From: Stieleria magnilauensis
GTDB lineage: Bacteria; Planctomycetota; Planctomycetia; Pirellulales; Pirellulaceae
Direction: 5' to 3'
Length of the DNA stretch: 64,000 nt
Assembly (NCBI GenBank): GCA_007753675.1
Contig: CP036432.1
Coordinates: forward strand, 8,434,233 to 8,498,232
Position numbers and translations under genes: made by a program. Positions 39,284 to 58,253 of this stretch are shown in pieces (the first letter of the stretch is position 1; the number at the start of each line of letters is the position of its first letter). The notes under the pieces are model-generated. The model was not told where the DNA came from and ran no database searches. It worked only from the letters and a program-made list of their open reading frames with translations.

Positions 39284-40576
39284 CTAGTTCTGACTTTTCC
39301 CGTCATTACGGAGATATCGCACTGGCCGATTCATCTTCACGACCCGCGATTCCGAAACGGCTCGGCTCAGCCAATCCTGAACCTGATTCTGTTTCGCTTG
39401 TATACGTTCGGCCACTTCAGCGAGGGTCAAAGGTTCCGCGAGGGAGTGCAGCAGCAATTCAAGCACAGCGTCATACGCCGTCTTTGGAACCGCAACTGAT
39501 TCGTCAGCATGTGACGTTTCGGTCCTTACTTCGTCTTTTCCGTTCGCATTGGCTTCGCTTGTTTTGTCGTCAGCGCATGTGTCGTCGATCGGGAACAGCG
39601 GCGTCTTCTGAGCTAGCGAGTGAGACCGGGCTTTGTCAATGATCTCGTGGAGGGATGATGGATCAAGGTCTTTCCAGTGGTCAGGAAATGCAACAGCGCC
39701 CAACTCTTGTAGCCTTGCGTTCCCCACTGGCGAGCCGGGACCGTTTCGCACGAATACGGGCTGCGGCGTCTTGCGCTTCAATTCCTCTTCGGCACCAGCC
39801 CACGTGCCACCTTTCTTGTATTCGGAACTGACGACGAGCCCCGCATCTGCCATGGCGTAGATCAGTTTGTTACGCCCCATCGCTGTGCCGACTGTGAACC
39901 GAGCCTTGGGATGACAATGTGAGATCAACAGCAATTGGTTTTCCGCAATCGCTTCTCGTGCATTGCGACTTACGCTGGTTTTCAGCAAGCTGTCGGCAAG
40001 CACACCAATGACGGTCCCTCCCGCTCGCAATGCGCCTTCCATCGCAGTCTTGTCTACCCCCCTCGCTCCGCCTGAAACAACGGGATAGCTTCCTCTGGCA
40101 CACCATGCTGCTACTTCTCGTGCGAATTCTTCACCCGCAGCATCAACGTTCCGAGAGCCAACAATCGCCACACCGCCTCCTGCCAATAGAGACTTGTCGC
40201 CGATTCCGTAGAGAATTGGTGGTGCCAGCGACTTTAGTCTCTTTCGATAGCGAGTTGGGTAGTCATCGTCGCTACGGCACACGATCCAAATCCCATTTCG
40301 GTTCCATTCTTCGACCGCAAAACCAAGCTGCACTCCGCGACTGAGTAGCCTCTCGAATCTTTGCTTGTCGACACCTGCTGCGTTCGCTGCGTCATGCAAG
40401 TCATCTAGTTCAAGTACGTCCGCCGGACGCATTTGATTCTTGACCAACCAACTCACAAGTGAGCTGTACGCAGTCTGACTTAACGGATCACAGCCAGCGT
40501 TCTTCTCTCCGAACCAACCTGCAAGCAGCATGATTGCCTTTGCGTCTTCGCTAAGCGGTTGAGCGGTAGTGCTCAT
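39284..40576 (-). CDS. dprA: DprA-like Rossmann protein (ShosA-like partner)
   Basis: This 430-aa protein starts at the ATG at 40576 with GAGGG upstream, 12 bp after the phosphoribosyltransferase gene. It has the DprA/Smf Rossmann fold: LAPPILYGIGDKSLL, GVAIVGSRNVDAAGEEFA, VVSGGARGVDKTAMEGALR, GTVIGVLADSLL, MGRNKLIYAMADAGLVV and GTWAGAEEEL, plus a winged-helix-like C-terminus. Housekeeping DprA loads RecA on incoming ssDNA. Here the partner is a phosphoribosyltransferase, the pairing of the ShosTA toxin-antitoxin/defence system (ShosT phosphoribosyltransferase toxin, ShosA DprA-like antitoxin), so a defence role is more likely. That is inferred from gene order. Confidence 0.85.
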   Translation of the reverse strand: MSTTAQPLSEDAKAIMLLAGWFGEKNAGCDPLSQTAYSSLVSWLVKNQMRPADVLELDDLHDAANAAGVDKQRFERLLSRGVQLGFAVEEWNRNGIWIVCRSDDDYPTRYRKRLKSLAPPILYGIGDKSLLAGGGVAIVGSRNVDAAGEEFAREVAAWCARGSYPVVSGGARGVDKTAMEGALRAGGTVIGVLADSLLKTSVSRNAREAIAENQLLLISHCHPKARFTVGTAMGRNKLIYAMADAGLVVSSEYKKGGTWAGAEEELKRKTPQPVFVRNGPGSPVGNARLQELGAVAFPDHWKDLDPSSLHEIIDKARSHSLAQKTPLFPIDDTCADDKTSEANANGKDEVRTETSHADESVAVPKTAYDAVLELLLHSLAEPLTLAEVAERIQAKQNQVQDWLSRAVSESRVVKMNRPVRYLRNDGKSQN

Positions 40577-40587
40577 TTCAAATTCCC

Positions 40588-41520
40588 TCAATCCATTCGC
40601 GGCGAGCTGAGCGCCAACGCCATCGGAAACACGGCTTCACACCCACGCTGCCGAAGCAACGCAGCGATAATGGTGAAAGTCCACTTTGAATCAACAATGT
40701 CATCCACCAAGAGGCATGCTCCGGTTGGCATCTTTTGATGCGAAATCTGAAACGCACCGTCCAAATTGCTTGCTTGTTTGAAACTGTTTCGCATTTCTTT
40801 TTGCGGCGGCGTAGAACGAATCTTCTGAACGCAGTGAACGAATGGTACTCCTAGTTTAGCAGCTAATCGCTCCGCGAAATCCGGAACAATTGTCGGATTG
40901 TTTAGAGAGGGCACGCATGCAACCCACGTGGGGTATGGCTCGGGACTCCATTGTTCGATCATTGACGCACACGCATCAACCAACGAATCGTCAAAGCGCT
41001 TCGTTTCATATTTGTCGTGAGCGACCTGCTCCCCCCAACCGGCATCCCTCCACAGACAGAGCGCCCTTCCTTCCGATGCTCGCAAATCATCAGTGATTTT
41101 CCCAGAAAATCCGTAGGCCGGAAGCGGATTGTGAGCTGGCCACGACTTTCTTGGTTCGAGTTCTTGAAAGCTACGGCGCAGGAAATGGACGGCTTTCATC
41201 GCGAGAGTTTTATCGTAGTTAACAGCGACGAGAGGCCGGCCAACGCAATTCGCACACTGACCGCACTTGGCTGCATTTGGGTCGTCGAGCGAATTGCTCA
41301 AAAAGTGCATCAGACATTCGACGCTGTCCACATACCGCTGCATCTCCGCTTGTTCGTCCTGTCGTATCTTTGTGATTGCGGCGATCATCTCAGAATCGAC
41401 CCTGTAGGTTGCTGCGAATGCTGTCACGTTCCAGCTTGAACCAATTTTCGCGATCGGTGAGGGCGACTCGACAGAGAGGTACTTGATCGCGCTGGTTATC
41501 TGGCCGTTCGTGAGATTCAA
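40588..41520 (-). CDS. RecQ C-terminus fused to phosphoribosyltransferase (ShosT-like)
   Basis: This frame of about 310 aa starts at TTG 41520. The N-terminal part has the RecQ zinc-binding pattern (ECLMHFL...AKCGQCANC), then a PRTase domain (about 170-310) with the PRPP loop in TGACLLVDDIVDSKWTFTI. The same frame stays open upstream to about 41737 and encodes the helicase motif VI as YHYYQQVGRAGRA, without a start codon. So this is the end of a RecQ-like helicase whose ATPase core was deleted. The PRTase looks intact and sits directly before the DprA gene, as in ShosTA-like pairs. It may still work from an internal start, or be a relic. Confidence 0.75.
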   Translation of the reverse strand: MNLTNGQITSAIKYLSVESPSPIAKIGSSWNVTAFAATYRVDSEMIAAITKIRQDEQAEMQRYVDSVECLMHFLSNSLDDPNAAKCGQCANCVGRPLVAVNYDKTLAMKAVHFLRRSFQELEPRKSWPAHNPLPAYGFSGKITDDLRASEGRALCLWRDAGWGEQVAHDKYETKRFDDSLVDACASMIEQWSPEPYPTWVACVPSLNNPTIVPDFAERLAAKLGVPFVHCVQKIRSTPPQKEMRNSFKQASNLDGAFQISHQKMPTGACLLVDDIVDSKWTFTIIAALLRQRGCEAVFPMALALSSPRMD

Positions 41521-41738
41521 CGAGGACTGGAGCCTTGGAACCGAGAGTCCATCGGGGCTTTCGTCAAGTGCCTGAATAATCTTGTCAACGTGTGCCTGCG
41601 GTGGAAATGCATTGCGTATAAAGAAGTCTGCGATATCATCATCTTCCGAACCGTGGAGTAGGACGCCCAGAGCATTCTCGACTGCACGACCAGCACGTCC
41701 GACTTGCTGGTAGTAGTGATAGCTTTCGCAAGGTAATC

Positions 41739-41971
41739 AATGAAAAAAAGTTCTCAGGTCCAAAAACTTCGTCAAGGACTGCGCGTATTCGATGTAAGTT
41801 TTCGTCTCCAATCTGTACGAAGATCGAGCCAGTTTCATGCAACAACTCTCTTGATACCTCAAGCCTGTCCTTTAAGTATGTGAGGTAGGAGTTGATGCCG
41901 TCTTTCCATGTGTCGCGAAACGCTTTTACCTGTTCCGGTTCACGGGTGATCTGGTCGCGCTTGCCAGGCAA
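41739..41971 (-). pseudogene. Type III-like adenine methyltransferase fragment
   Basis: About 75 residues from the N-terminal part of a site-specific adenine methyltransferase (type III Mod-like) are recognisable: KRDQITREPEQVKAFRDTW, SYLTYLKDRLEVSRELL, GSIFVQIGDENLHRIRAVLD and EVFGPENFF. The catalytic and target-recognition domains are missing. At the 5' end it fuses to a restriction-helicase fragment and at the 3' end (about 41740) to RecQ sequence in another frame. This is a deletion scar, not a working gene. Confidence 0.8.
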
Positions 41972-42527
41972 TTAGCATCGCCATCACGGTCGTCTTTCCG
42001 GCACCGGTGGCAAGCTTCAGCGCCAACCGCATGATTTCCGGGTTGGCTTCGGCGTTCGCGTTGGCAAGGTGCGCGAGAAACTTTTTTCCAGTCACTGACT
42101 TTGGGGCGACTTCTGTTAACCAGATGGCGACTTCAACAGCTTCGACTTGGCAAAAGAAAGGCCGGATACCCTGGAAATCATGGTGCCGCCAATGCTGGAG
42201 GAGTCTCGCAGTCTCAGGAGTGACTTGCCACTCACTCGAGTTGGGCCATTTTCGCCACTCGTCTACATGGCTTCGCAATTCATTGATGATGGGAATCTCA
42301 TCGTATCTTTGATTCTCGGTCGACAGGCCGTCATCGTGACCAAGACTGAGTTCTTGCTGCCGTTTGGACTGTTTTTGCTTTTTCGTCTTGGGGATTGGTG
42401 TAATAAATTCAGCACGACGACGATTCCCGATGATTTTCTCGGTCGGTTGGCCATTCACTAGTTCCCAATGCATATCGGGATAGTCGTAGGGCGAATTGAG
42501 TATCGGATCGTCAAAGAACTTGGACAT
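41962..42527 (-). pseudogene. Restriction endonuclease/helicase N-terminal fragment (BPTD_3080-like)
   Basis: The gene starts at the ATG at 42527 (MSKFFDDPILNSPYDYP) and encodes about 189 residues of a large restriction helicase: WELVNGQPTEKIIGNRRRAE, ITPIPK, FFCQVEAVEVAIWLTEV and the Walker A region LALKLATGAGKTTVMAMLIAWQ. The sequence then breaks and joins the methyltransferase fragment. Full members of the family run to about 1000 residues with DEAD helicase motifs, so more than 80 percent of the gene is gone. The divergent XRE gene probably once regulated this locus. Confidence 0.8.
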
Positions 42528-42616
42528 TGGGAATTCAGAGCGAGCATTTCTTGACCGTATAGTGACGGAAGCATACACTCTGCAGGGGGCCCCCACAATC
42601 AGCGGAGTGCCGAGAA

Positions 42617-42940
42617 ATGCAGTTCAGCGAAAAGGTGCGAGTACTACGCGTTTCGCGTCACCTAACCCAACAACAGTTGGCGGAGCAAATGGGCGTAAGC
42701 GTTTCGTACATTTGCAAAGTCGAAAACGACGGTTTGCAGTTCGGTGACTATCCGTCGGAGACCTTTATCCAAAGGTTGGCAGCAACACTCAATGCGGACG
42801 AATATGATTTGATGATGCTTGCTGACAAGATCCCCGAATCAATCAGGATCAGGATTCGTGAGCGCCCAACCCTCTTCAAAGCGATCGCCAAACTCGATGA
42901 CCAGGGCTTGGATCGATTGACGCTGCAACTCACCAATTAG
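42617..42940 (+). CDS. XRE-type helix-turn-helix regulator
   Basis: This 107-aa protein has a Cro/CI-type HTH at about residues 5-60: RVLRVSRHLTQQQLAEQMG, VSVSYICKVENDG and AATLNADEYDLMMLADKIP. The C-terminal 40 residues are short and helical. It is divergent from the restriction-helicase remnant with 89 bp between the starts, the usual place for an R-M controller gene. It is the only visible regulator in the island. With its partner genes truncated it may be an orphan. Confidence 0.88.
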   Translation: MQFSEKVRVLRVSRHLTQQQLAEQMGVSVSYICKVENDGLQFGDYPSETFIQRLAATLNADEYDLMMLADKIPESIRIRIRERPTLFKAIAKLDDQGLDRLTLQLTN

Positions 42941-43368: not shown

Positions 43369-45351
43369 ATGACTCAGTGGATTTTCGCACAATTGTCCGG
43401 CGCGGCGGTGCGCCGCGATCCGAACGAAACGGAACTCTTCAAAACCGAACAGGCGGGCGAAGACGAATACGCCGGGACTGATGCGTTGGTCCGTGAAGTG
43501 CTGCAAAACTCGATCGACGCGGGGAGCGACGATGGGCCGGTTCGTGTCTGTTTTGCCCTGCATCCGCATTCTTCCCTTCCCGACGACGACCGTCTTGCGA
43601 CCTACTTTGCGCGACTGAAACCAGGCTTGGTGTATCGCGACGTGGAGTTCAACGGATCGGGGGTTCCTCAGCTGAATCATGGCTACCTGGTTTGCGAAGA
43701 CTTTGGGACACGGGGACTGGACGGTGATCCGCTGCTGGCAACTGATCCGCAGGAAGGCAGCCATGACTGCCAGGATTTTTTTTGGTTCTGGCGAAACATC
43801 GGACGCAGTGGCAAGACTGGTGATGATCTTGGGCGATGGGGACTGGGGAAAACGGTCTATCGCGCCGCGAGTCGCGTCGGATGCATGCTCGGTTTAACGG
43901 TCCGCAAGTCGGACGGTGCACGTCTGCTGATGGGGCAAGCTGTGCTGCGCATTCACAAATACAACGGAACGGAATTTGCGCCGGAGGGTTTCTGGTGCAG
44001 CGGAAACAACCAAGCGGAAACACCGTTGCCCATCAGTCACGAAAAGGACTTGGTGCAATTCGCAAGCGAATGGAATTTGACGCGTACCGACGAGCCCGGT
44101 TTGTCGGTCGTTGTTCCCTATGTCGCCGATGAGCTGAAGGCGGAAAGCATCTTGCGACTGGTTGCGGTCAACTTCTTCGTACCGATTCTGAAACAAGAGC
44201 TGATCGTCGATGTCGCTGGGCCCGGACTTCCTGGCCGGAACTCCGAATTCCGGCTCGATCATACCTCCATCGATCACGTTTGCAGCAAGCTTAGCTGGAC
44301 TGGCAAATCGAGACAAAAACTAAGCAATCCGCCACCGCTTGATTTCGCGCGCGACTGCTTGGCGAACGCCGGTCAAGCGGTGCCAACAAATGTGCTGGGC
44401 GAGTCACGCGTGCCGGTCATGGATGAGAATGCATTCTCGGCCGCGACACTGGCGGAGCTTCGCAAGCGATTTGCTCTTGAGCAGTTGGTCGCGATCCGAG
44501 TTCGTGCTGCCTTGCCCAAAAAGGTGGGTAAAGCTGACATCGGGGAGCTAACGGTTTTTCTGCAACGCACGCCTGTGGCCGACCGTTACGAGAGCTACTA
44601 CGTCCGCGAAGGGATGACGATCACTCGGCTCAATTCCAAGCCATCCATGCGCGGCACAAAGGGGCTGGTTGTTGTCGATCCTGGGCCGCTCGCGTCTCTG
44701 CTGGGTGACACTGAAGGTCCGTCGCACGTCAGTTGGGATACCTCGAATGATGAACGTCCCAATCGGGTTTGGAAGACGTGGAAAGGACGAGTGAAGTTTT
44801 TCGTCAAGATCATCGATGGATTGGCTGAGTTGCTTACACCACCTCCAGACAAAGTAGACTTTGACTTACTCAGTGACTTCTTTTCGATTGAGCAGGTTAC
44901 GGCACCCCAGCCGAAACGAAAGCCAAAGGAGGGCGGTGAAAGGACGAGGGATTTTGACCCGCCTGATCCAACGCCTCACTGGTACCGAATGCAGGGAAAA
45001 ACGGGCGGCTTTACGATTTGCGACTCATCTAGTCTGCCAACTCCCGAGGGAGCGATTCTGCGGGTCACGGTCGCATACGATCTGCCAAGCGGAAATCCAA
45101 TGAAGCACTGGAGCAAATTCGACTTTGATTTTCGAAAGCCAAAAGCTTCAAGCCTGAATTTTAAGCTCACGAACGTGAAAGCTACCGCGAAGGCAGGGAA
45201 TGTCATCGAAATGGAAATCACGGATCCGGACTTCAGCCTGACCGTGTCAGGGTTCGATATCCATCGCGATTTGTTTGTGCGAATCGACGAAGTCGAACTG
45301 GAGGAATCGCAATTGGATGAATATGCAAACTCAGGAGAGGTCGCCACATGA
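43369..45351 (+). CDS. GHKL (Hsp90/MORC-like) ATPase, first gene of a three-gene operon
   Basis: This 660-aa protein carries a Bergerat-fold ATPase in its N-terminal part. The N box is DALVREVLQNSIDAG (Glu43, Asn47), the G1 box is VCEDFGTRGL (Asp111), and the G2 box is LGRWGLGKTVYRAAS (158-161). An S5-like transducer region may follow (about 230-400), and the C-terminal 200 residues look beta-rich. It lacks the MutL and HATPase sensor-kinase signatures. GHKL ATPases are common in anti-phage loci, and this one sits in a defence-like island. The stop overlaps the next start in ATGA, so translation is coupled. The function is unproven. Confidence 0.82.
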   Translation: MTQWIFAQLSGAAVRRDPNETELFKTEQAGEDEYAGTDALVREVLQNSIDAGSDDGPVRVCFALHPHSSLPDDDRLATYFARLKPGLVYRDVEFNGSGVPQLNHGYLVCEDFGTRGLDGDPLLATDPQEGSHDCQDFFWFWRNIGRSGKTGDDLGRWGLGKTVYRAASRVGCMLGLTVRKSDGARLLMGQAVLRIHKYNGTEFAPEGFWCSGNNQAETPLPISHEKDLVQFASEWNLTRTDEPGLSVVVPYVADELKAESILRLVAVNFFVPILKQELIVDVAGPGLPGRNSEFRLDHTSIDHVCSKLSWTGKSRQKLSNPPPLDFARDCLANAGQAVPTNVLGESRVPVMDENAFSAATLAELRKRFALEQLVAIRVRAALPKKVGKADIGELTVFLQRTPVADRYESYYVREGMTITRLNSKPSMRGTKGLVVVDPGPLASLLGDTEGPSHVSWDTSNDERPNRVWKTWKGRVKFFVKIIDGLAELLTPPPDKVDFDLLSDFFSIEQVTAPQPKRKPKEGGERTRDFDPPDPTPHWYRMQGKTGGFTICDSSSLPTPEGAILRVTVAYDLPSGNPMKHWSKFDFDFRKPKASSLNFKLTNVKATAKAGNVIEMEITDPDFSLTVSGFDIHRDLFVRIDEVELEESQLDEYANSGEVAT

Positions 45352-46124
45352 TCAAGCGAGTCAATTCTCTTGGCAGAAAACGTGTTTCACGAGACTGCGT
45401 CGCGATCGCGGTTGATGACGGTGACCCTAGATCATTTAGCGCGAACATCGATTTCGGCGAACACGCATGGGATCCAAATGCTTCAGTCGTCATGGAGGTA
45501 ACTTGCGCTGGATCTTCGCTGGTTCGCAGATATCCCTGCGGCACCGTTGGACAATTGAAGCAACCAAAGCAATTACCGCTCAGCGATCTTCATGGCCAAA
45601 ATGTCTTTTTCTCACTGAAAATCATCGACAGAAGCGAGCACATCGGCCGCCTACTTGGTGTCGCGGAGAATATCAAACCGCTCACAACCGGCAAGCAAAC
45701 CGTTAGCGGCCGCAAGGGGATCCTGCCTGTCGAGAGAGCGCCGCTGGGTCAGGAATTATGGAAGCTGGAATTCCGCGACCACGATGTTTACCTGCTTGTA
45801 AACGAGAATGTGCCCGGACTGTCCGAGAGTATCCGATCCGATCCGGTATTCTTTTCGCTGATCTATCCACAAGTCATGCGTCAAGTTCTGACTCGAGCGA
45901 TCAATGAGGGAGCCGAACCGGACGAAAACGACGACCGTTGGCCGGTACTCTGGCTGGCGTTCGGACGCAAGCTTCACCCCGACCACGAAGATCCGCCACC
46001 GCCCGATGACACGGAAGCCGCCGAGGAATGGACCGAAATTGTTGTGCAATCATTTTGCGAATTGCACGAATTGCGATCAAAGTTTGTGAGCTCAGGGTAC
46101 GCGTCGGGATACGGAGACGAGTGA
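45348..46124 (+). CDS. Unknown protein, second gene of the GHKL operon
   Basis: This 258-aa protein starts at ATG 45348, inside the stop of the ATPase gene (ATGA overlap). It has no signal peptide, membrane segment or motif that I recognise. The N-terminal third is beta-rich (FGEHAWDPNASVVMEVTC), the middle includes APLGQELWKLEFRDHDVYLLVNENVPG, and a Pro/Asp/Glu-rich linker (DHEDPPPPDDTEAAEE) precedes a short C-terminal helix. The tight coupling implies that it forms a complex with the ATPase or acts in the same process. The next gene follows 3 bp after its stop. Confidence 0.78.
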   Translation: MIKRVNSLGRKRVSRDCVAIAVDDGDPRSFSANIDFGEHAWDPNASVVMEVTCAGSSLVRRYPCGTVGQLKQPKQLPLSDLHGQNVFFSLKIIDRSEHIGRLLGVAENIKPLTTGKQTVSGRKGILPVERAPLGQELWKLEFRDHDVYLLVNENVPGLSESIRSDPVFFSLIYPQVMRQVLTRAINEGAEPDENDDRWPVLWLAFGRKLHPDHEDPPPPDDTEAAEEWTEIVVQSFCELHELRSKFVSSGYASGYGDE

Positions 46125-46127
46125 GCG

Positions 46128-46841
46128 ATGCATGTACGGAGATTCAACCCATCTGGAATTGAAGCATTTCGCAAGTTCCTCAGGACATGTCGAGACGCAC
46201 CGTCAACGCCAACGCCGTGGGAAGTGCTTGAAAGTGATGAATTCACGTCGCTGACAACGGAGACCATTGAGATCGAATCGAGATCGTTTGATTCGAGGCG
46301 AGAAGCAGCTGAATACCTTCACGCAAAACTTGACTGCATTTCAGCGGAGACATTGCGAAAAGACGATGGTTTATGGACTTGGCTTTCGCTTTTTTTCTTC
46401 GACCAAATTTGCCCTGCAGTTGCTGGAAATCGCAAAGTCAGAAACGACTACACGTACGTCTACATGCCTCACGAGTCACGCTACTTCTATCGGCACCTGC
46501 TGTTCGTCGCGTGGTACGTACAACACATCGCTCCCAGCCACAATCGTCTATTTTTAGATACGAGCGTCCACAATCTGGACAAATATACAAGTGACGTATT
46601 TAAGCGTTTGTACATTACTCGTATACCGTGCGTCTTTGAGGTTCTTGATCGACTCTACTGGGACGATTCTACAGGCCGTCCAAGGAAGGGTCTTACGAAC
46701 CCAGGAAAAGTAGTAGCCGGCAATCTGATGCATCGATTTCCGATTAGAATTCGACAACTCGAAAAGACATACGATCTTCAAAGCCTTACAGCCGATCAGC
46801 TAATCGAATTGCTTGGTAGTGAGTTTCAGCAGTTTCGCTAA
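46128..46841 (+). CDS. Unknown protein, third gene of the GHKL operon
   Basis: This 237-aa, basic and aromatic-rich protein contains GLWTWLSLFFFDQICP near residue 85, NDYTYVYMPHESRYFYRHLLF near 105-125, and a C-terminal part with NPGKVVAGNLMHRFPIR and LEKTYDLQSLTADQLIELL. There is no signal peptide. The arrangement recalls uncharacterised proteins found next to methyltransferases and ATPases in defence islands, but I cannot name the family. It completes a block of three genes with overlap or a 3-bp gap between them, which points to obligate co-function. Confidence 0.78.
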   Translation: MHVRRFNPSGIEAFRKFLRTCRDAPSTPTPWEVLESDEFTSLTTETIEIESRSFDSRREAAEYLHAKLDCISAETLRKDDGLWTWLSLFFFDQICPAVAGNRKVRNDYTYVYMPHESRYFYRHLLFVAWYVQHIAPSHNRLFLDTSVHNLDKYTSDVFKRLYITRIPCVFEVLDRLYWDDSTGRPRKGLTNPGKVVAGNLMHRFPIRIRQLEKTYDLQSLTADQLIELLGSEFQQFR

Positions 46842-46999
46842 TCCGTGTAAACGGTAGCGGCCAAGGTGCCTGGCTACGCCACTCTGAGAGTTCGTGTATT
46901 GGCAACATTGGGATGGTAAGCAGCGTAATTGCTTGAGTCCAAACGTCTGCATCTTGCGATTCAGCCCATCACAAATGCGTTATCGCATTCGAATTCAAC

Positions 47000-47650
47000 A
47001 TGACCACGCCGATCAAGAAAGCGCGCAAACCTGAAATCATCACCGTCAGTGACCACATCGCATGGTCGTACGCGAATCTTGCCCGCGCCGACGCGGCACT
47101 TCAGGGCGGGTGCAGGAGCTACCAACGAACCCATCACATCATTCGAAGCAGGCTTTTTAACGGACTGAAAAATGGCACCATGGCAATTCGATCGTTGTAC
47201 GATGACGAACGCCTCAAAATGACTATGCCACAAGCTTGCTGCTACTGCGGTGCGACGGACAACTTATCGATTGACCACCTAATCCCTCGGGTCCGCGGTG
47301 GCGCTGACGATGCAGACAATCTTGTTTGGACGTGCCGCAAATGCAACAGTTCGAAACAGGGTCGCGACATGCTCGAATGGATGGCGAAAAAGAACGGGTT
47401 TCCCGCGATTCTACTTCTTCGGAGATACCTCAAACTGGTTGCGCGTTACTGCGACGAGAATGGTTTTCTGACAACGCCATTAGCGGAAGCACTTCAGCTT
47501 GACCTGCCCTTCGATTTATCCCTCATCCCCCATTCGTTTCCGCCGCTATCGGAGATTACGCTCTGGATCTATCCGGAATCATCGGCTGACGTCAGAGGAA
47601 TCCCTAACGAGACGACTGGAGTCGAACTCCCAACGGATCAGGGTGACTGA
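47000..47650 (+). CDS. HNH endonuclease
   Basis: This 216-aa protein has a classical HNH module at about residues 78-115: CCYCGATDNLSIDHLIPR, then GGADDADNLVWTCRKCNSSKQGRD. Two CxxC knuckles bind zinc, and the DH..P..GG..D.NL...C..CN pattern supplies the metal-ion active site. The N-terminus (about 1-70) is helical and the C-terminus ends in a Pro-rich, acidic tail. It starts at ATG 47000, 158 bp after the GHKL operon on the same strand, so it could be its nuclease component or an independent defence gene. The upstream ribosome site is weak. Confidence 0.85.
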   Translation: MTTPIKKARKPEIITVSDHIAWSYANLARADAALQGGCRSYQRTHHIIRSRLFNGLKNGTMAIRSLYDDERLKMTMPQACCYCGATDNLSIDHLIPRVRGGADDADNLVWTCRKCNSSKQGRDMLEWMAKKNGFPAILLLRRYLKLVARYCDENGFLTTPLAEALQLDLPFDLSLIPHSFPPLSEITLWIYPESSADVRGIPNETTGVELPTDQGD

Positions 47651-50310: not shown

Positions 50311-51771
50311 ATGGGCAGGCGAAAAGCAGACCGATACAAGCTGTATTGGAACAAGCCCCGAAAGCCCGGCCAGTCTGGCCGTTGGTCAATCAAGTTTCGT
50401 GGCAAGTGGTATTACCCCGGCGGTGCTGCTGCTGAGGGCAAGGTCGCGAGTTACCAGCGATGCTGGCGCGATTGGCTCAGAATGAAGGCAGAGATCGAGG
50501 CAGCCGACGAAGGGGCTCGCCTGGAGCAAGTGAAAGCCAGTTGGGCCCCCGTTCTGAATGCCGTGCGTGAAGTACAGCAGGAAGTGGTCACCACTTACGA
50601 CGACACGCCGGAAACCAGAAAGATTTGGCAGGCACTAGAAAGCAAGTTCGTCAAGGAGATCATCGAGCCCGCTGTTAACAATCTCGAAGTCGCAGGACGC
50701 AGTGATGCTGAATTTCTGCGGGACCAAGTCGCCGAATCCGCCGAGACACTGGAATCGGTTCACTTTCAGTTTCCAGTTGAGTTTCACGAAAACACCGGGA
50801 GCAGCCCGAAACACGCCGTGGGCATTCCACCGTGGGAACAGGAACCCGAAAAAGCAAGCGGTATTCACCAGCTTGCGAAAGCGTTTGTTGCGAGTGTCAA
50901 AGCAGAATCAAGCCTGAAGCGAGCAGACAACGTCCGGCGTGATCTCGATTCGTTTCTCGCAACACTGCCGACCAATACCGGGCTGGGGGAAGCGCTCTCA
51001 TCAGCAACCCTCGACACCTACCTGCGTGACGTGAAGTCTCAGGACCTTGTGTCATCGACCAAGCGGGACAAGATTGCATCGGTCAAGCAGTTCGCAACGT
51101 GGGCATTCGAGCGCGAGCACCTGGAATCCCTGCCAAGACTCATCCAGGCCAACAAGTTCAAGGTCGAAGTGACGAAGAGACCTGTCGAGGTTTACGAGGA
51201 TGCCGAAATCGCGGAAATCCTCGGCGCGGCTTCTGGACGCCCAAGGCTTTATATCCTGTTGGGGCTCAACTGCGGGTTTACCCAAGCCGATATCGCGGAC
51301 CTGCGTCATTCTGAAGTTGACCTGTCGACCGGCGTGATCACACGCAAGAGGTCAAAGACGGACAACATGGAGAGCGTGCCCGAGGTTGCACGTACGCTTT
51401 GGCCAGAGACTCTCAGCCTGCTCAAGGCGAACGCATCAGAAGATGGCGACCGAGTTTTGCTGAACGCACAGGGCAAGCCGCTGGTCGAGGTCAGGGAGGC
51501 TGGCGGCGAAGTCAAACGCACCGACGCGGTGGCCAAAGCGATGTCTCGATTGCGAGACAGTATGGATCGGGCGAAGCCGATCGGGTTCAAACGCTTCCGC
51601 TCGACCGCTGCCAGCAAGCTTGGCGAACACGGCGAATACCGCGCCTATGCCCAGCATTTTCTTGGGCACGCGCCGTCCAATGTTGCAGATAGCCACTACG
51701 TGCGACCAAGCCAACAGCAGTTTGAGAGGGCGATGGCATGGCTACGCAGCAAGTACTTCGCAGTATCATAG
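50311..51771 (+). CDS. int: Tyrosine recombinase (integrase) of the phage element
   Basis: This 486-aa protein has an unusually long N-terminal region (about 1-180), a core-binding domain (SLKRADNVRRDLDSFLATL and TYLRDVKSQDLVSSTKRDK) and a catalytic domain (about 300-480). The boxes seen are PRLYILLGLNCGFTQADIADL, FKRFRSTAAS, HFLGHA and the Tyr in DSHYV. The first catalytic Arg is not obvious: where TGLR is expected, the sequence reads NCGFTQAD. The H of HxxR is also replaced. Relatives in planctomycetes share the CGFTQ/CGMTQ form from memory, so it may be an active variant family. It should insert and excise the element. Confidence 0.82.
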   Translation: MGRRKADRYKLYWNKPRKPGQSGRWSIKFRGKWYYPGGAAAEGKVASYQRCWRDWLRMKAEIEAADEGARLEQVKASWAPVLNAVREVQQEVVTTYDDTPETRKIWQALESKFVKEIIEPAVNNLEVAGRSDAEFLRDQVAESAETLESVHFQFPVEFHENTGSSPKHAVGIPPWEQEPEKASGIHQLAKAFVASVKAESSLKRADNVRRDLDSFLATLPTNTGLGEALSSATLDTYLRDVKSQDLVSSTKRDKIASVKQFATWAFEREHLESLPRLIQANKFKVEVTKRPVEVYEDAEIAEILGAASGRPRLYILLGLNCGFTQADIADLRHSEVDLSTGVITRKRSKTDNMESVPEVARTLWPETLSLLKANASEDGDRVLLNAQGKPLVEVREAGGEVKRTDAVAKAMSRLRDSMDRAKPIGFKRFRSTAASKLGEHGEYRAYAQHFLGHAPSNVADSHYVRPSQQQFERAMAWLRSKYFAVS

Positions 51772-51820
51772 GACACTACACATCTTAGTTTTTTGCCCCA
51801 CGTTCGTGAAATAGTCAGGT

Positions 51821-52072
51821 ATGCAAACCAACAAAGAACCATCTGGCGAGATCAATCTTGTAGACTCCCATCATGAATCCGCGAGCGGGCAATCCGACAT
51901 GTTTGTTTCTTCGCGTCTATGGTGTGAAGGCAGCTACGTGATCCTAACAACCAAGACTTGCAAGAGCAGCTTTTGGAAAAGCGAAAGTCAACCAAGCACT
52001 GAAAGCTACAGGATCAGTGCGGCGAAGCTGAAGTGGCTAATCGAATCCGAGGGCGAACCCTGGGTCAGCTAG
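51821..52072 (+). CDS. Hypothetical protein, 83 aa
   Basis: This small plus-strand frame starts at ATG 51821, 49 bp after the integrase stop, and runs convergent with the tape-measure gene, ending 20 bp before it. The product is polar, Ser/Glu-rich, with the end KLKWLIESEGEPWVS, and has no membrane segment or known motif. It is possibly an accessory protein of the element. Real expression is uncertain. Confidence 0.45.
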   Translation: MQTNKEPSGEINLVDSHHESASGQSDMFVSSRLWCEGSYVILTTKTCKSSFWKSESQPSTESYRISAAKLKWLIESEGEPWVS

Positions 52073-52092
52073 GTCAGCGTTCGTGGATTGAT

Positions 52093-54825
52093 TCACCGCA
52101 CCGCGTTGGCCGCGCGCTGCGCCCCGTTGGGATCGAACTCGTCGCGTGGCGCCGTGTTGCCTGCGGTCACAGCGGTAGCGTCTGCGGTCGCCTCAGCAGC
52201 GTCGGCGTTCCGGTTGAGCACTGATAGCATCTGCTCAAGCAACGCATTGTTCTTCGCGAGTATCTCATTTTCGATCGGAGACAGATTGCCATCGCGGTTA
52301 AACGTCGCCTCTTGGTCTCTTCGAATCGCCTTGAATTCCCGAATCGCGCTCTCGATTTCGCTTCTAGGGAACACGCTCAGGTCAGCAAGAAGTTTCTCGT
52401 TAGCGGCTGCTGCCTGGCGAAAGGCGTTCGCTTCACGTAGATCATTTTGGGGGATCTCGGAAACATCGCGGTCGACAATCTGCGTAGATCGAACTCCAAG
52501 TGTTTCCGCCCCGTCAGTCGTTTCTACCTTCTTCGTGTAGTAGCTTCGTTCCTGACCTTGCAGAAAGTCCTGTGCGCGGACAACGCTTTTCAGGTCTCCG
52601 CCTCCAAAACCGTCTCGCTCGATCGATCCGCCGAAACCCATCCACTCCATCACCGGATTCGGACGGTAGCCAGTTGCCAGCAGATTGACGGATTCGCCTA
52701 CTGTGTCCTCGGTCGCCCTGACCGCCTGCTTCACGATGTCCAGGGATGCTTGCGATACTGCCTTCCCTGTAGCGTCCAGGGTTGCCAACTCGCCCGCAGA
52801 TTCGCCTGCGGCAGATGCCTTTTTGATGTTCATGGGTGTGGTCGGCTGCAAACTCTCCTGCTGGACAATGAGATTTGCGGCGTAGCTGCCAGCCGATGCG
52901 CCCTTCAATTGCCCCGTGATGTCCTGACGGGTCCGCATCACGTCTTGGAAGACACTCCCACCCCGAAGTAGATCGTCGATGACACCTTTGAAAGTGGCGT
53001 CCCCGAACGCCCCCGCAGACGCCTTGAAGTCATCTTGCAGTTGATACCGGTGGATCGCCTGCAAGCGTGCCAGCGGTGTCCCAGGGGCCTTCGTGAAGTT
53101 GATGCGATTTTTGGCCCGCAAATCCGCAATGTCGGCTTTCAGTCTCGTCACTTCTTCGCTGTCGCCAGCGGCCTGGGCAGTCTTCAAATCCGTCTGTTTC
53201 GACTTGATCAGATTGGGCCGCGCGTTCTGCTCGATCACTTTGCTATCGAAATACTCGTCAAGCTTACCCACAATCTGGGAAGCGAAAGTGCTGGACCGAT
53301 CGCCCTTGTCGTCGCCGGTCTTTTGCGAGGCAGCGCCCGCGATAGCCAGCGCATCGAATGCCCCGATTGCTTCTGCCATTGATCCGCCATCAGACGCGAG
53401 AGCGCCAGAGGCAAGAGCCCTCGGAGCAGTCGCGGAAAACTGCCCCAAGTCTGTAACACCGCTTCCCTTCATCCCCGCGATAACACCCGAAGCGACATTG
53501 CGAACTGCGTTTGCGTCGTCTTGCTGTCCGCTGGCTTTCATGGCACCCGCAACCGCTTTCGCGAATTCGCTGATCGATTCTGGCGATAGCTGCATGATGT
53601 CGGCAGATGCTGACATTACCTCCTTAATCACTTCAGGGCGGCTCACGCCTGACGACATCACGACGCCCGCTGCTTCCGCTAGCTCCTTGGCGCCAACTAT
53701 CCCCGTTCCCGTGTCGTTCGCAATCCGACGCGGCGCGGTGTCGATTAAATCCTTCTGAACCTCGGGAGATAGCCCGGTCAGGTTCTGCAACGCAGTCGCC
53801 TGGACTGTTGCAAGGTCTGTGTTAGCATCTTTGGCAGCGGCGCGAAGTGCCGCTTGCCGCTCTAGGGCTTTGTTCACTTCATCGACTGCAATACGCACCG
53901 TCCCAGTGACAGCGGCAACGCCACCCAATGTGGCGGTCATCTTCGCGGCGAACGCCCCCCAAGCCTTCGTAGATTTGCTGGCGGCTGTCGTGAAGCTCGC
54001 TTGGGCCTTCGCAGCGGTTGCCGCTACTTTACTGCCGAGTCCAGTCAATGGCTTCATGATGCGAGACATAGCCTGTTCGCTAACGTGGCCAGCGGTCACA
54101 AGTTCCCGCTTGATCTCATCTGCTGCTTTGTTGCCAGCGGGACCAAGTTTGCGGATATCATCCAGCGGGCCTTTGAATTCGGTCTCGACTTTGTCGAGCG
54201 ATACCTTGAAGCTTCGCTCCAGCGCTTCGGCTTGTCGCTTGCCTTCTGGTCCAATGCGGCGCATCTTGCGAAGCATATCGTCAAGCGACTGTGCCCCCGC
54301 TCCAAGCTTCGCAAGATCAGCATTCGCGGCGCTGACAGCTTTTTGGGCTTCGGGGCCAAGCTGACCGATATTGCGCACCATCGCGCTGACGCTTCGTTTG
54401 TTCTCCTTGGCAGCTTTCGACATCGAGGCAGCATCAGCAGCCTTCTTCAGCTTCTGACGCATACGTTCTAGCTGCGCTTCGGTCAGGTCCGTGGTCTGAC
54501 GTAGCTGATCGATAGTCGCGTCGATCTTTTCAAATTCTGACTTCGCAAGCCCCGTGTCTTTGACAAGCCCTTTGAAGGCGTCCCGAACAGATTTTGGCAT
54601 GCCCGCAAGATTCTTGCCAGCAACCGCAACTGCCTTGTCCAAGTTGACGACTTCACCTTGCACTTCGCCGACCGCACCGACAGCCTGCGCCGCGGCGCGT
54701 TTCGCATCGGCACCGAATGCGCCTATCGATTTTGTCAGCTTCTGTTGTGCCTGTTCTGACTTGTTGAAAGCCTGGACAAGTCCCTTTTCGTCGCCGTCCA
54801 GTTTTACGATTGTGTTTTCTGACAT
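52093..54825 (-). CDS. Phage tail tape-measure protein
   Basis: This 910-aa protein is Ala-rich and strongly helical. The N-terminal 300 residues are heptad-like with regular GPEAQKAVSAA/GPEGKRQAEAL/GPAGNKAADEI repeats, a short hydrophobic stretch follows (about 290-310, AAKMTATLGGVAAVTGTVRIAV), and the rest is helical with a low-complexity end (ADAAEATADATAVTAGNT). This fits a tape-measure protein, which sets tail length and passes DNA during infection. It is the last gene of the packed minus-strand operon. Lack of other tail genes makes its role here unclear. Confidence 0.7.
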   Translation of the reverse strand: MSENTIVKLDGDEKGLVQAFNKSEQAQQKLTKSIGAFGADAKRAAAQAVGAVGEVQGEVVNLDKAVAVAGKNLAGMPKSVRDAFKGLVKDTGLAKSEFEKIDATIDQLRQTTDLTEAQLERMRQKLKKAADAASMSKAAKENKRSVSAMVRNIGQLGPEAQKAVSAANADLAKLGAGAQSLDDMLRKMRRIGPEGKRQAEALERSFKVSLDKVETEFKGPLDDIRKLGPAGNKAADEIKRELVTAGHVSEQAMSRIMKPLTGLGSKVAATAAKAQASFTTAASKSTKAWGAFAAKMTATLGGVAAVTGTVRIAVDEVNKALERQAALRAAAKDANTDLATVQATALQNLTGLSPEVQKDLIDTAPRRIANDTGTGIVGAKELAEAAGVVMSSGVSRPEVIKEVMSASADIMQLSPESISEFAKAVAGAMKASGQQDDANAVRNVASGVIAGMKGSGVTDLGQFSATAPRALASGALASDGGSMAEAIGAFDALAIAGAASQKTGDDKGDRSSTFASQIVGKLDEYFDSKVIEQNARPNLIKSKQTDLKTAQAAGDSEEVTRLKADIADLRAKNRINFTKAPGTPLARLQAIHRYQLQDDFKASAGAFGDATFKGVIDDLLRGGSVFQDVMRTRQDITGQLKGASAGSYAANLIVQQESLQPTTPMNIKKASAAGESAGELATLDATGKAVSQASLDIVKQAVRATEDTVGESVNLLATGYRPNPVMEWMGFGGSIERDGFGGGDLKSVVRAQDFLQGQERSYYTKKVETTDGAETLGVRSTQIVDRDVSEIPQNDLREANAFRQAAAANEKLLADLSVFPRSEIESAIREFKAIRRDQEATFNRDGNLSPIENEILAKNNALLEQMLSVLNRNADAAEATADATAVTAGNTAPRDEFDPNGAQRAANAVR

Positions 54826-54832
54826 TGCTCGT

Positions 54833-55342
54833 CTATTGCGTTTTGAGGTTGTCGGCGAGAGACTTCTTGAAGACCTTGCCTAATTGTTGTTGCTCTGCTG
54901 CCGTGACGCGCTGGAACTCATCACGCATATCGATATCAGTGTGTCGGCTCTTGCGATTAAAGCCCTTGGCCTGCGGGTAACTGACTTGCACTTCTCCCTT
55001 GCCATCGCCGTCGGTCAGGATCGATGACACCGCGTCAATGCGATGGGATTCTGTCGACCGCCTGGTTTTGCCGGTGAATTCCAAGGGGCGCGTATGCCCC
55101 TTCAGCCGAAGCTTGCGACCGGTGTAGCTCTTGCGAAAGTCTTTTGACAATCGATCGAGGGCGGAGCCGCTGCGGGGCAGAAAGCCCGCTTTCTTCGCAT
55201 GCGTTTCCGTGAAACGGTCATCTTTATGGTCGCGGTGGAAGACATCGCCCGTTTCTTGGTATGCTTTGGTCGCGGCAAGCCCAACGCGGTCTCGCAGTGC
55301 CTTTACGGGGTTGCCTTGGAATCGGATCTTTGCCGTAGTCAT
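54833..55342 (-). CDS. Putative head-tail or tail protein
   Basis: This 169-aa basic protein lies between the tape-measure gene (7 bp) and the 178-aa gene (6 bp). It contains GNPVKALRDRVGLAATKAYQ and GFLPRSGSALDRLSKDFRKSYTGRKLRLKG, followed by a more acidic middle and the C-terminal EFQRVTAAEQQQLGKVFKK. The position and general composition resemble head-tail joining or tail-completion proteins (HK97 gp10 type), but there is no definite motif. A structural role is likely. Confidence 0.5.
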   Translation of the reverse strand: MTTAKIRFQGNPVKALRDRVGLAATKAYQETGDVFHRDHKDDRFTETHAKKAGFLPRSGSALDRLSKDFRKSYTGRKLRLKGHTRPLEFTGKTRRSTESHRIDAVSSILTDGDGKGEVQVSYPQAKGFNRKSRHTDIDMRDEFQRVTAAEQQQLGKVFKKSLADNLKTQ

Positions 55343-55348
55343 CGATCC

Positions 55349-55885
55349 TCACTCGCCAATCTTCTTGAGTTCGTTTTCCTTGGCTACAATTTCGGCCTTT
55401 GTCGTTTCGATCTGCGTCTTGATCAGGTTGACTTTCACAGTCTGCTCGTCAGGATTCCGAGAAGGCATTGCTTCTTGCTTGAGAAGCTTGCCTTCAAGGC
55501 TTTGGAGCCGGGTTTTCAATCGCTTGATCTCGGCAAGCTTGCTGCGAACTGCATCCATTTCGTGGTCATCGCTTAACCCGTCGGTCAACGTCGCTTCGAG
55601 GTAGCTGTCTTGGTCGCCCCAAAGTTTCGACAAGAACGCCTCATTTGCGTCCCATTCGTCGAATGCGTTTTGCGGCAATGGTACTCCCTGCGGTTTGCAG
55701 CCAATTGGATACGCTCGCTCGCCTTTTTCACAAGAAAGGGCTTCGGATTCGACGTAGTCGGCGAGTGTCGGCCAAACGTCTTTGACGGCTTGGCTGCTCA
55801 GTCCTTCCAGTGCAAGCGACTTCCGCAGTGGATCGGTGAACTGACCGAAGCTGCCAGCCCATTTCTTCGTTGATAATTGATTCAT
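55349..55885 (-). CDS. Phage protein with C-terminal coiled coil
   Basis: The frame is open from 55972, but the ATG at 55885 (MNQLSTKKWAG) is a better start, leaving 44 bp after the upstream gene. The 178-aa product has a globular N-terminal half (FGQFTDPLRKSLALEGLSSQ) and a coiled coil from about 105 (KLAEIKRLKTRLQSLEGKLL) to the end. No family is recognised. It may be a scaffold, tail-assembly or chaperone-like protein, given its place between terminase and tape-measure genes. Confidence 0.55.
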   Translation of the reverse strand: MNQLSTKKWAGSFGQFTDPLRKSLALEGLSSQAVKDVWPTLADYVESEALSCEKGERAYPIGCKPQGVPLPQNAFDEWDANEAFLSKLWGDQDSYLEATLTDGLSDDHEMDAVRSKLAEIKRLKTRLQSLEGKLLKQEAMPSRNPDEQTVKVNLIKTQIETTKAEIVAKENELKKIGE

Positions 55886-55929
55886 GTTTTCGGTTCCTTG
55901 GGTAGAGTTGGTTGAAGTGGGGTTTGGTC

Positions 55930-56283
55930 TTAGCGGAAAGCGGGGCCAGTCTTGGAGGATCTGCCAATCCACAACCGACGCGAGGGATTGTATTCGTCAA
56001 ATGGCATCGGTGGCGGTTTGGGTTCGAACTCTGGGCGCAGGTCACGCCCTGACGCTCGCTCGGTTGCGGCAAAATCGATCTCTGCGGAGCCGATGCCCAA
56101 ATGGTTTAGTTTCGCGATGACGAGCGCACCGCCGATGTCATGGCGGACGGCCTCCAAGTCGTCACCTGTTAGTCGCACGACTTCGCCAGGCGCGAATTCC
56201 ATCGTGCGAAGGATGTTTCCCTCGGCATCACGCACCGAACGCCTGAAAGGGGATCGCTTCTGAGGGTGTCGCATTACGATCAT
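55930..56283 (-). CDS. Hypothetical phage-operon protein, 117 aa
   Basis: This small protein begins in the stop of the large terminase gene (ATGA overlap at 56280-56283). It contains FAPGEVVRLTGDDLEAVRHDIG, a segment seen in small phage structural proteins, then AKLNHLGIGSAEIDFAA and a Pro-rich tail ending PPMPFDEYNPSRRLW. The translational coupling to terminase suggests a DNA-packaging or head-completion role, but I cannot assign a family. Confidence 0.55.
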   Translation of the reverse strand: MIVMRHPQKRSPFRRSVRDAEGNILRTMEFAPGEVVRLTGDDLEAVRHDIGGALVIAKLNHLGIGSAEIDFAATERASGRDLRPEFEPKPPPMPFDEYNPSRRLWIGRSSKTGPAFR

Positions 56284-58253
56284 TGGTTGTTGACCACATA
56301 TCGAGGCTTGCGGATGAATGAAGAGCCAGCAGGGCGGGAAGCTTCAGTGATTCGCTTTACTGTTGCACCAACGCCTTCATGAACTGGCTTTCGCTTCGTA
56401 GGGGCGGGCGTGCGCCGTCGAGTAGCGTTCATTGCCCAATCGCCGCCAACGTAGGTCTCGATACCGACGCGGGCGTATCGAACAGCGTCACGGAAGTCGA
56501 CCGGCGTTGTTCGGTCGCTCTGCGTCCAAAGCCCCGTTTTGGCGTCCCAGCATTCGTTCAAGAGTTGTTCATGAAGCGAACGAGACTCAGCCGCCCACGC
56601 CGGGAAAATGATTGAGTTGCGTTCACCAGGCTTGCGATTGAAGAGGCAGTTATTGAGCCAATCTTGGCTGATCGCGGTGCCCACCTTGACCAGTTGCAAA
56701 CCATCGATCTGACGCGAACCCTTTTTGACAACGTGGTTCTGACTGTCGACGTTGACCCGCTGGAAAAACGATCCGTTGAACGACTTTGGATTTTGGCCCA
56801 TCGATGGCCATACAAACGGCCCGCGATCGTTGTTCATGTCTCGGCAAGCATCAACGATTTCGTCCTTTCGGTTTCCGTCCTTCGCATCGATCAGCGTCAA
56901 CATTGGCGAGACGGTCCCGCCGTCTTCGCAGTCGTAAACTTGCACTGTCCATTCCTTGACGCCCTGCCAGTCAGTAACTCTGCCGAAGTCGATCAGATAC
57001 CCTACCTTGTTCGGGCAGAATCCAAGCGTGACACAAACGAAGTGATCAATCTGGACATCGATCGCAACAGTCAGCGCAAAGCACTGCTCGGGTACGGTCC
57101 CCCTGTTCCAACCGCCAACACACAGACGCTTTGCCAAGTCTTCCCATTCGAGCTGTCGGCGGATGGGAGCATACGGCAGCCCAAGCCAGCCGTTGAACAG
57201 GTCTTGAGCGTGCTCAGTCCCGATTTTGGTGACATACTCCTTTGCAACATCGCCGAACGTGAATGTCGGCGCGTACAACCGATTCAGATTGAACGATTCA
57301 TCTGGCCCGTCATTGTGAGGCGTACCTGTGACTGTGCCAGTGCGGTCGATCACTTCACCTGGAGCAACCCAGACGCCTTTGCGGATCTGCGCCAGCCGGT
57401 GTTCGTCACCCCAGTTGTTCGTGCAGTGCGGGCAAACGTAGGTTGCCGTCCTGTATGCTCGCGCCGGCGTTGTGCGCCCGTCCTTGTCTTTTTCCCACCA
57501 AAGACCACCCGCGCGGCGGTCGTTTGTCTGATTCACTTCAAGAGGGCTGAAGTCGCCACAATGTGGGCAGGGCACGAAATAGTGCCGATTGGTCCCAGCT
57601 TCGACGTAGCGGCTGATTGCGCAGGTGCCCACAAGTGTGGGCGTCGATTCCATGAACACTTTCCGATCGACAATTTCAGAACCACGTTGCAACGTCAATT
57701 CAACCGTGTCCGCTTCGTCGCTGTCGTCGCGGCTAAATTTAGAAACTTCAAGGAGGTGCAAATACTTGGGGTCCAGGTCTCCAAGCGTCACCGGCGAACC
57801 CGACCAAGCGCCGTGGGTGATGAATGTCGATGTCCGGCACTTCGTCGCCGCACGTAAATGCTTTGGCGGCAAGCTCGACCGAATTTCGCTGTTAAGTTCG
57901 AGCGATGGCCAGAGCCGATCTTTGATTGTCTTCTGCAACAGCCGCTCTGTCGGCGTTACAATCATCCCGGTGTCGGGGTCATGATGCTGGGCGCAGGCAT
58001 GGAGAGCCAAATTGATCTCTGTTTTGCCAACGCGCGAGCACGCGCGAAACGCGATGCGCCGAACCCTGGGATCGTCCCAAGCGTCGGCAATGCCTTTGAG
58101 GTAGGGAAAACTTGCCCCGTCAAATGGGTCGCCCTTGTGGGTAACCGCGTGCTGGTTGATCCAATCCCAACTCGATAGACGCTTCGGCGAATCCAGTGAC
58201 GATGTCACGTATTTGCTCAGCGGAAGGATCGGCTCGGATACGCAGGTCAGCAC
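56280..58253 (-). CDS. Phage terminase large subunit, GpA family
   Basis: This 657-aa DNA-packaging motor has a Walker A motif RACSRVGKTE (Gly76-Lys77-Thr78) and a Walker B-like region near LLEVSKFSRDDSD; a CPHCG...CPHC zinc ribbon lies at about 233-280, as in GpA-type terminases. The nuclease part follows, with FALTVAIDVQIDHFVC starting a new domain and a catalytic Asp pattern. It should translocate and cut DNA into proheads with the small subunit. It overlaps the small terminase stop by 7 bp and the next gene in ATGA. No capsid or portal gene is nearby. Confidence 0.85.
   Translation of the reverse strand: MLTCVSEPILPLSKYVTSSLDSPKRLSSWDWINQHAVTHKGDPFDGASFPYLKGIADAWDDPRVRRIAFRACSRVGKTEINLALHACAQHHDPDTGMIVTPTERLLQKTIKDRLWPSLELNSEIRSSLPPKHLRAATKCRTSTFITHGAWSGSPVTLGDLDPKYLHLLEVSKFSRDDSDEADTVELTLQRGSEIVDRKVFMESTPTLVGTCAISRYVEAGTNRHYFVPCPHCGDFSPLEVNQTNDRRAGGLWWEKDKDGRTTPARAYRTATYVCPHCTNNWGDEHRLAQIRKGVWVAPGEVIDRTGTVTGTPHNDGPDESFNLNRLYAPTFTFGDVAKEYVTKIGTEHAQDLFNGWLGLPYAPIRRQLEWEDLAKRLCVGGWNRGTVPEQCFALTVAIDVQIDHFVCVTLGFCPNKVGYLIDFGRVTDWQGVKEWTVQVYDCEDGGTVSPMLTLIDAKDGNRKDEIVDACRDMNNDRGPFVWPSMGQNPKSFNGSFFQRVNVDSQNHVVKKGSRQIDGLQLVKVGTAISQDWLNNCLFNRKPGERNSIIFPAWAAESRSLHEQLLNECWDAKTGLWTQSDRTTPVDFRDAVRYARVGIETYVGGDWAMNATRRRTPAPTKRKPVHEGVGATVKRITEASRPAGSSFIRKPRYVVNNQ

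Follow-up and report, generated by a model that had tools for sequence, protein, structure and literature searches.

A three-gene GHKL ATPase unit of Stieleria magnilauensis is a distant relative of the predicted candidate system PDC-M33 and a candidate DNA-defence module

The window analysed here is a 64,000-nucleotide stretch of the Stieleria magnilauensis genome (assembly GCA_007753675.1, contig CP036432.1, positions 8,434,233 to 8,498,232), within which we focused on three consecutive genes, P1, P2 and P3, referred to herein as the triad, and on an HNH gene that follows them. In window coordinates these genes are:

43369..45351, + strand: P1, a predicted GHKL (Bergerat-fold) ATPase of 660 amino acids (aa), from its open reading frame (ORF), ATP-site motifs and a match to the PADLOC profile PDC-M33A
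45348..46124, + strand: P2, 258 aa, assigned to no family, from its ORF, an alignment of 75 and a structure model
46128..46841, + strand: P3, 237 aa, assigned to no family, from its ORF, an alignment of 69 and a structure model
47000..47650, + strand: HNH endonuclease gene, 216 aa, from matches to Pfam PF01844 and PF14279; a neighbour, judged to lie outside the triad

P1 and P2 share a 4-bp ATGA overlap, where the junction reads ...CACATGATC..., while 3 bp separate P2 from P3 and 158 bp separate P3 from the HNH gene. A re-check of the ORFs confirmed the coordinates, gene sizes, overlap and both gaps reported in an initial annotation made from the sequence alone. Because relatives at 21-75% identity occur across many phyla, P1, P2 and P3 are, on the evidence of conservation, real genes.

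To follow the triad across genomes (numbered G, their loci L), we searched 392 planctomycete genomes with P1 as a single-sequence query and with P2 and P3 as alignments. P1 matched in 14 genomes, 12 of them strongly and two weakly. One of the 12 carries two copies, and at all 13 strong loci relatives of P2 and P3 directly follow P1. The independent P2 search recovered the same 12 genomes, and the independent P3 search recovered those 12 plus G198, in which a P3 fragment (residues about 87-238) without P1 or P2 was read as a relic; in G344 a second P3 piece lies at a contig end. Random agreement of two 12-genome sets would have a probability of about 4e-23 if the genomes were independent, which they are not quite.

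The same arrangement was seen in a wider sample of 80 loci, the best 80 of at least 307 P1 relatives from genome contigs, which favours closer relatives and includes the near-duplicate pairs L065/L066 and L109/L116; a viral locus, L120, was counted apart. Adjacency of the three genes across genomes, proposed in the initial annotation as a check, held in this sample, with the order P1-P2-P3 kept in 76 of the 80 loci. Three exceptions (L053, L072 and L113) lie on contigs too short for P3, and the fourth, L045, is a decayed locus that lacks P2 and has P3 in pieces. One gene is split in two in L058, L082 and L086. With start codons picked by script, gaps in L040-L120 were at most 20 bp at 76/79 P1-P2 and 69/77 P2-P3 junctions, and the genes overlapped at 62/79 and 54/77, respectively. 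Pairwise distances of P1, P2 and P3 were correlated (r = 0.84, 0.82 and 0.76; 56 loci), and none of 2000 permutations of the distances exceeded 0.16. Judged from gene order and divergence, P1-P2-P3 is inherited as one tightly coupled unit whose members diverge in step.

Copies of this unit were found in at least nine bacterial phyla and in archaea, the hosts including Planctomycetota, Pseudomonadota, Verrucomicrobiota, Acidobacteriota, Bacteroidota, Chloroflexota, Nitrospirota, Myxococcota and Thermodesulfobacteriota, and among named strains Rhodopirellula maiorica, Marinobacter lipolyticus and Rhizobium leguminosarum. A plasmid search with P1 returned one Rhizobium plasmid with a complete triad, and L120 (IMGVR_UViG_3300011814_000013), a contig classed as viral, carries a complete triad together with a 77-aa gene. 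Within lineages the distribution is patchy: 12/392 planctomycete genomes and 1/8 other members of the family of the window genome (G274). On this basis a housekeeping role was rejected.

P1 was assigned to the GHKL superfamily by what we take to be Bergerat-fold ATP motifs (ExxxN..D, DxGxG-like and GxxGxG). In an alignment of 60 rows selected from P1 relatives (A6), residues E43, N47, D50, D111, T114, G116, G155, G158 and G160 are invariant in 60/60 rows. These motifs, together with the similarity to PDC-M33A described below, indicate that P1 is a GHKL superfamily ATPase with an intact ATP site. P1 reached none of the Pfam HATPase models and matched none of the MutL family models, and Pfam and NCBIfam at E<=1 gave no family for P1, P2 or P3. 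A search of solved structures with sequence profiles of the three proteins gave nothing of note (best E 0.18). A PADLOC match to AbiEi among P1-P3 (E 0.037) was taken as chance. P1 also has a conserved C-terminal region. Its residues E449 and H453 are invariant (60/60 rows), and the pattern ExxxHxxW is present in 59/60. The signature given for paraMORC2 proteins is an ExxxH motif located C-terminally within the S5 domain, which follows the GHKL domain (PMC2292703). The E449/H453 motif of P1 is of this type and would lie in an S5 domain.

The initial annotation had named no system with this composition. None matches it exactly, but PADLOC-DB holds a predicted candidate system, PDC-M33, with components A, B and C (C being DUF6339), that has the same layout. 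Like the triad, PDC-M33 forms one operon, of a GHKL ATPase A (627 aa), an approximately 280-aa B and an approximately 250-270-aa C; several of its loci lie near a C5 cytosine methylase and Vsr, and the ExxxHxxW pattern is present in 5/5 M33A rows. The two weak P1 matches among the 392 genomes are themselves PDC-M33 loci. M33A relatives on plasmids share the layout, with a C5 methylase and Vsr nearby in Deinococcus and Arthrobacter, a C5 methylase in Priestia, and other methylases in Ligilactobacillus and Lactococcus; these plasmid proteins were aligned and searched with the profiles built in this analysis, the PADLOC scan covering the 77-aa Priestia protein. A phage search returned one unverified record, L142 (MT837792.1), a 6.2-kb 'Bacteriophage sp.' with genes that match our own profiles for PDC-M33 A, B and C.

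We next compared the three proteins with their PDC-M33 counterparts. In the PADLOC comparison suggested by the initial annotation, window P1 gave a partial match to PDC-M33A (E 5.4e-15; best stretch 38-283 of 660, mainly the ATPase domain), and neither P2 nor P3 was matched. All 60 P1 rows match the PDC-M33A profile at E<=0.01. Hhalign aligned P1 with the M33A relatives at E 1e-34 over 413 columns; by this comparison P1 and M33A are clearly homologous. The 60 P1-family rows and the five M33A rows separate with full support, albeit on long branches, in a tree for which M33A was the chosen outgroup. For P2 the likeness to M33B is suggestive only. The M33B profile gave no match at E<=1 for window P2 and five other P2 proteins (6 of 75 tried), hhalign of P2 with M33B gave P 0.02 (swapped pairs 0.46 and 0.079) with M33 alignments of only 5-6 sequences, and the P2 profile run on ORFs of M33 loci found a single M33B (E 0.079).

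P3 and M33C appear weakly alike, each link being weak taken singly. M33C (DUF6339) profiles matched 0/69 P3 proteins at E<=0.01 and found nothing in the window genome. Hhalign aligned P3 with M33C at P 0.0011 over 160 colinear columns (probability 19.8). When the P3 profile was run on ORFs of M33 loci, six third-position genes ranked next after a true P3, that of L028 at 6e-4 and those of L029, L121, L132, L125 and L122 at 0.0065 to 0.76; the third genes of L124, L133 and L134 were missed at E 1. Taken together, these sequence comparisons indicate that the triad is a distant relative of the predicted candidate PDC-M33, although PADLOC profiles would probably not call its family as PDC-M33. The triad family would extend defence-finding profiles, which now see only part of P1. 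At two further loci, L132 (G158) and L133 (G191), the P1 profile and the M33A profile both pick up a GHKL gene, and M33C gives weak matches to the genes behind it; these loci are perhaps further branches between the triad family and PDC-M33. A literature search on PDC-M33 or DUF6339, bioRxiv not covered, found no paper.

A 77-aa gene precedes the ATPase gene in 14/81 loci of L040-L120 and in 3/8 M33-type loci (L121, L122 and L125), and is absent from the window locus. Its profile was built from 9 of those 17 copies. Together with the common layout, this gene connects the triad family, in some loci, with PDC-M33. The encoded protein (e.g. L101:4206-4427) has a conserved 'FxxLAExRVNRxIKxIRLIGNLSNR'-like stretch, with no match in Pfam (L101) or PADLOC (L101, L122), and is possibly a shared regulator or a fourth subunit.

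P2 and P3 each matched no Pfam, NCBIfam or PADLOC family, and both were modelled. The P2 model (predicted local distance difference test score, pLDDT, 89.9; predicted template modelling score, pTM, 0.73) has an N-terminal beta-sandwich and C-terminal helices. Foldseek gave only weak matches for it, many of them fibronectin-III or C2-like; the best match has E 0.015, with template modelling scores of 0.13-0.15. We rejected kinship with these matches and read the domain as a generic beta-sandwich. The P3 model is confident and mostly helical (pLDDT 96.0, pTM 0.91). Foldseek found no match for it in the PDB (best E 6.8) or among the viral models of BFVD (best E 5.3), and in comparison with these two databases P3 may provisionally represent a new protein fold. 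Residues H123, Y177, R203, Q210, D216 and E232 of P3 are conserved in at least 96% of 69 rows and, to our knowledge, fit no nuclease motif. No MutH or Vsr model matched P2 or P3, and no toxin family was matched by any of the triad proteins.

In the initial annotation, the HNH gene was put forward as the nuclease part of the system. The gene does have a true HNH domain, but a relative was found in 0/89 other loci, using phmmer similarity and a self-made HNH pattern that would miss divergent HNH genes; two of these loci are PDC-M33 loci, and their flanks differ in length, many being short. The recognisable part of the gene is a generic HNH domain that was matched in 100/124 planctomycete genomes. 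An HNH nuclease as a fourth component was therefore rejected.

The defence setting suspected by the initial annotation does extend to relatives of the triad. Single-sequence phmmer searches, which may miss divergent genes, found a C5 methylase near 29 of the 80 loci, Vsr near 26, both near 24, and an EcoRII-like nuclease near nine, always accompanied by a C5 methylase or Vsr. Among the 27 loci whose flanks reach 6 kb or more in both directions, a C5 methylase was present in 14 and Vsr in 12. Any C5 methylase match was found in only 35/99 planctomycete genomes, and the flanks of all 80 loci total 0.75 Mb; chance alone should therefore give at most a few C5 neighbours. The C5 state changes at least nine times on a P1 tree of 60 family rows, made by a quick method and with short-flank loci scored 'no'. 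The window copy falls in a planctomycete clade in which C5 was seen in none of the 15 rows, and whose sister pair L054/L055 has both C5 methylase and Vsr. Nor was a C5 methylase seen next to the triad in one proteobacterial clade.

Neighbour families were scanned in selected representative loci. In the clade of the window copy, these included a type IIG methylase in L042 and L057, a DruE-like helicase in L056, a type IV-like restriction helicase in L040 and a relative of it in L041; other members had no recognised neighbour. The clearest case, L057, has the order NACHT, type IIG methylase, P1-P2-P3, PLD/SNF2 helicase, small gene, GmrSD. Separately, a gene of about 210 aa recurs directly 5' of P1 in L027, L054, L055 and L111, the L111 copy having no Pfam or PADLOC match.

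We lean, a little beyond an even chance, towards reading P1-P2-P3 as a DNA-defence module of the paraMORC2 kind that is driven by ATP and moves laterally. Such a kind is already known as a prediction, in PDC-M33 and in paraMORC2. A 2008 study predicted that GHKL ATPases drive restriction systems, paraMORCs having been found in restriction-modification (R-M) operons with a C5 methylase and Vsr, and proposed that the MORC silencing factors of eukaryotes arose from such restriction-linked ATPases (Iyer, Abhiman and Aravind 2008, PMC2292703). The triad shares with paraMORC2 the ExxxH signature in P1, a patchy, mobile distribution and, for the family, R-M neighbourhoods with a cytosine methylase and Vsr; the window copy differs in this last respect, its nearest methylase, Vsr or helicase-type gene being a methylase fragment. 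Leaving aside domains X1-X3 of its figure 2, the paraMORC2 text that was available describes no two-partner triad, and it gives cyanobacteria and Gram-positives as the main hosts (PMC2292703), whereas the triad is mostly in Planctomycetota, Pseudomonadota and others. VcSduA, a paraMORC3 ATPase-nuclease of the Shedu type with anti-phage activity, likewise places a GHKL ATPase in anti-phage defence, the predicted role of the triad, but has its DUF4263 nuclease fused in one protein (PMC12137116); P1-P3 have no DUF4263 match in Pfam. In the literature portions available to us, including PMC12458937, we found no description of the triad family, its two partners or the form without a C5 methylase, and no tested restriction-linked GHKL member apart from VcSduA.

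By analogy with MutL, P1 would dimerise and close on DNA upon ATP binding, as an ATP-gated clamp. P2 and P3 would be dedicated subunits of P1, with P2 as the bridge and P3, which has the nearly invariant polar residues H123, Y177, R203, Q210, D216 and E232, acting on nucleic acid. MutL with MutH or Vsr is similar, as a working model, in combining a GHKL motor with separate partners on DNA, and differs in that P1 matches no MutL model and P2 and P3 no MutH or Vsr model. At loci that include a methylase, host DNA would be spared by methylation, with the triad as the restricting half. The window genome is a single contig, with ratings of 100% for completeness and 4% for contamination; neither a C5 methylase nor Vsr was found in it, and N6/N4-type methylase genes lie elsewhere. 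Since C5 methylase and Vsr were not found there, a different mark or the structure of the incoming DNA would have to tell self from non-self.

Several observations weigh against a restriction-like defence module. No C5 methylase was seen at 51/80 loci, partly owing to short contigs (38/80 have 3 kb on both sides), and beside the window copy there is no modification gene except the methylase fragment. A simple C5-gated restriction model fails in the window genome for want of a C5 methylase or Vsr, which also argues against obligatory C5 gating. C5 methylase and Vsr also occur as a pair where no GHKL gene is present, so part of their association with the triad may reflect the clustering of defence genes. 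Finally, a nuclease motif or fold was recognised in none of P1, P2 and P3, which leaves cutting conjectural. The defence system of ATPase, adaptor and nuclease envisaged by the initial annotation is supported in part, by the co-occurrence far beyond chance, the patchy distribution and the restriction and defence contexts of relatives; its adaptor and nuclease roles are conjectural, and the HNH nuclease has dropped out. A more specific version, which we regard as possible but doubtful, is a free-standing ATP-driven restriction machine with P3 as an effector of a fold unseen in solved structures; it could be combined with modules of the C5 methylase/Vsr, type IIG or helicase type, and in certain lineages, that of the window included, it would do without a cognate methylase.

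An unlikely alternative is abortive infection, in which P1 would sense a phage DNA structure or protein and release a toxic P3 that acts on targets of the host or on shared ones, independently of methylation. The complete triad in the window genome, where neither C5 methylase nor Vsr was found, the unmatched fold and conserved polar residues of P3, and the NACHT and GmrSD genes beside the triad in L057 are consistent with this. However, no toxin family was matched, and recurrent pairing with a methylase and Vsr in many phyla is a pattern expected of restriction more than of suicide systems. We consider it more unlikely still that the triad is a non-effector regulator or chaperone of adjacent R-M genes. 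GHKL proteins include both Hsp90-like and histidine-kinase-like types. Such a role was proposed for the related pairs of HEF_HK and Response_reg_2 (PF19192), whose genes likewise neighbour C5 methylases and Vsr (PMC8011034). Yet P1-P3 match neither domain nor any other Pfam model (E<=1), and the neighbours vary by clade while the triad stays constant. Least probable is a repair accessory, a MutL-like helper of Vsr mending T:G mismatches from deaminated 5-methylcytosine: Vsr lies near 26/80 loci, 24 of them also with a C5 methylase, and MutL and Vsr interact in E. coli (cited in PMC2292703), but the window genome has an intact triad with no C5 methylase or Vsr found, which speaks against a pure repair role, the window clade and one proteobacterial clade have no C5 seen beside the triad, and some window-clade members pair with a type IIG methylase or helicases instead.

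As a DNA-defence module, the triad family would be a compact test case for restriction-linked GHKL ATPases, comprising three genes that travel together. Its natural copies with and without a nearby C5 methylase allow a direct test of methylation as the self mark, and the fold of P3 may prove to be new.

The immediate surroundings of the window copy contain the following features:

42617..42940, + strand: helix-turn-helix gene 5' of P1 on the same strand, from Pfam HTH_31/HTH_3; a possible regulator
41639-42596, - strand: type III-like R-M fragments, consisting of a methylase piece and about 185 residues that match the BPTD_3080-family restriction enzyme profile at its start
39284-41520, - strand: PsyrTA pair, with a complete PsyrA (PADLOC E 2.5e-126)

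The helix-turn-helix gene has no relative in the other loci by phmmer. What the initial annotation had called R-M remnants are the type III-like fragments, and its DprA/PRTase pair matches PsyrTA, the N-terminal half of PsyrT being absent: the window PsyrT spans only positions 389-685 of the 689-position profile, and the helicase half is missing. Promoter and terminator scans gave no more hits than in shuffled sequence, and an Rfam scan gave none. At 50311-58837 the window holds an integrase followed by opposite-strand genes that include a large and a small terminase, a prophage or phage-derived element about 3 kb from the triad.

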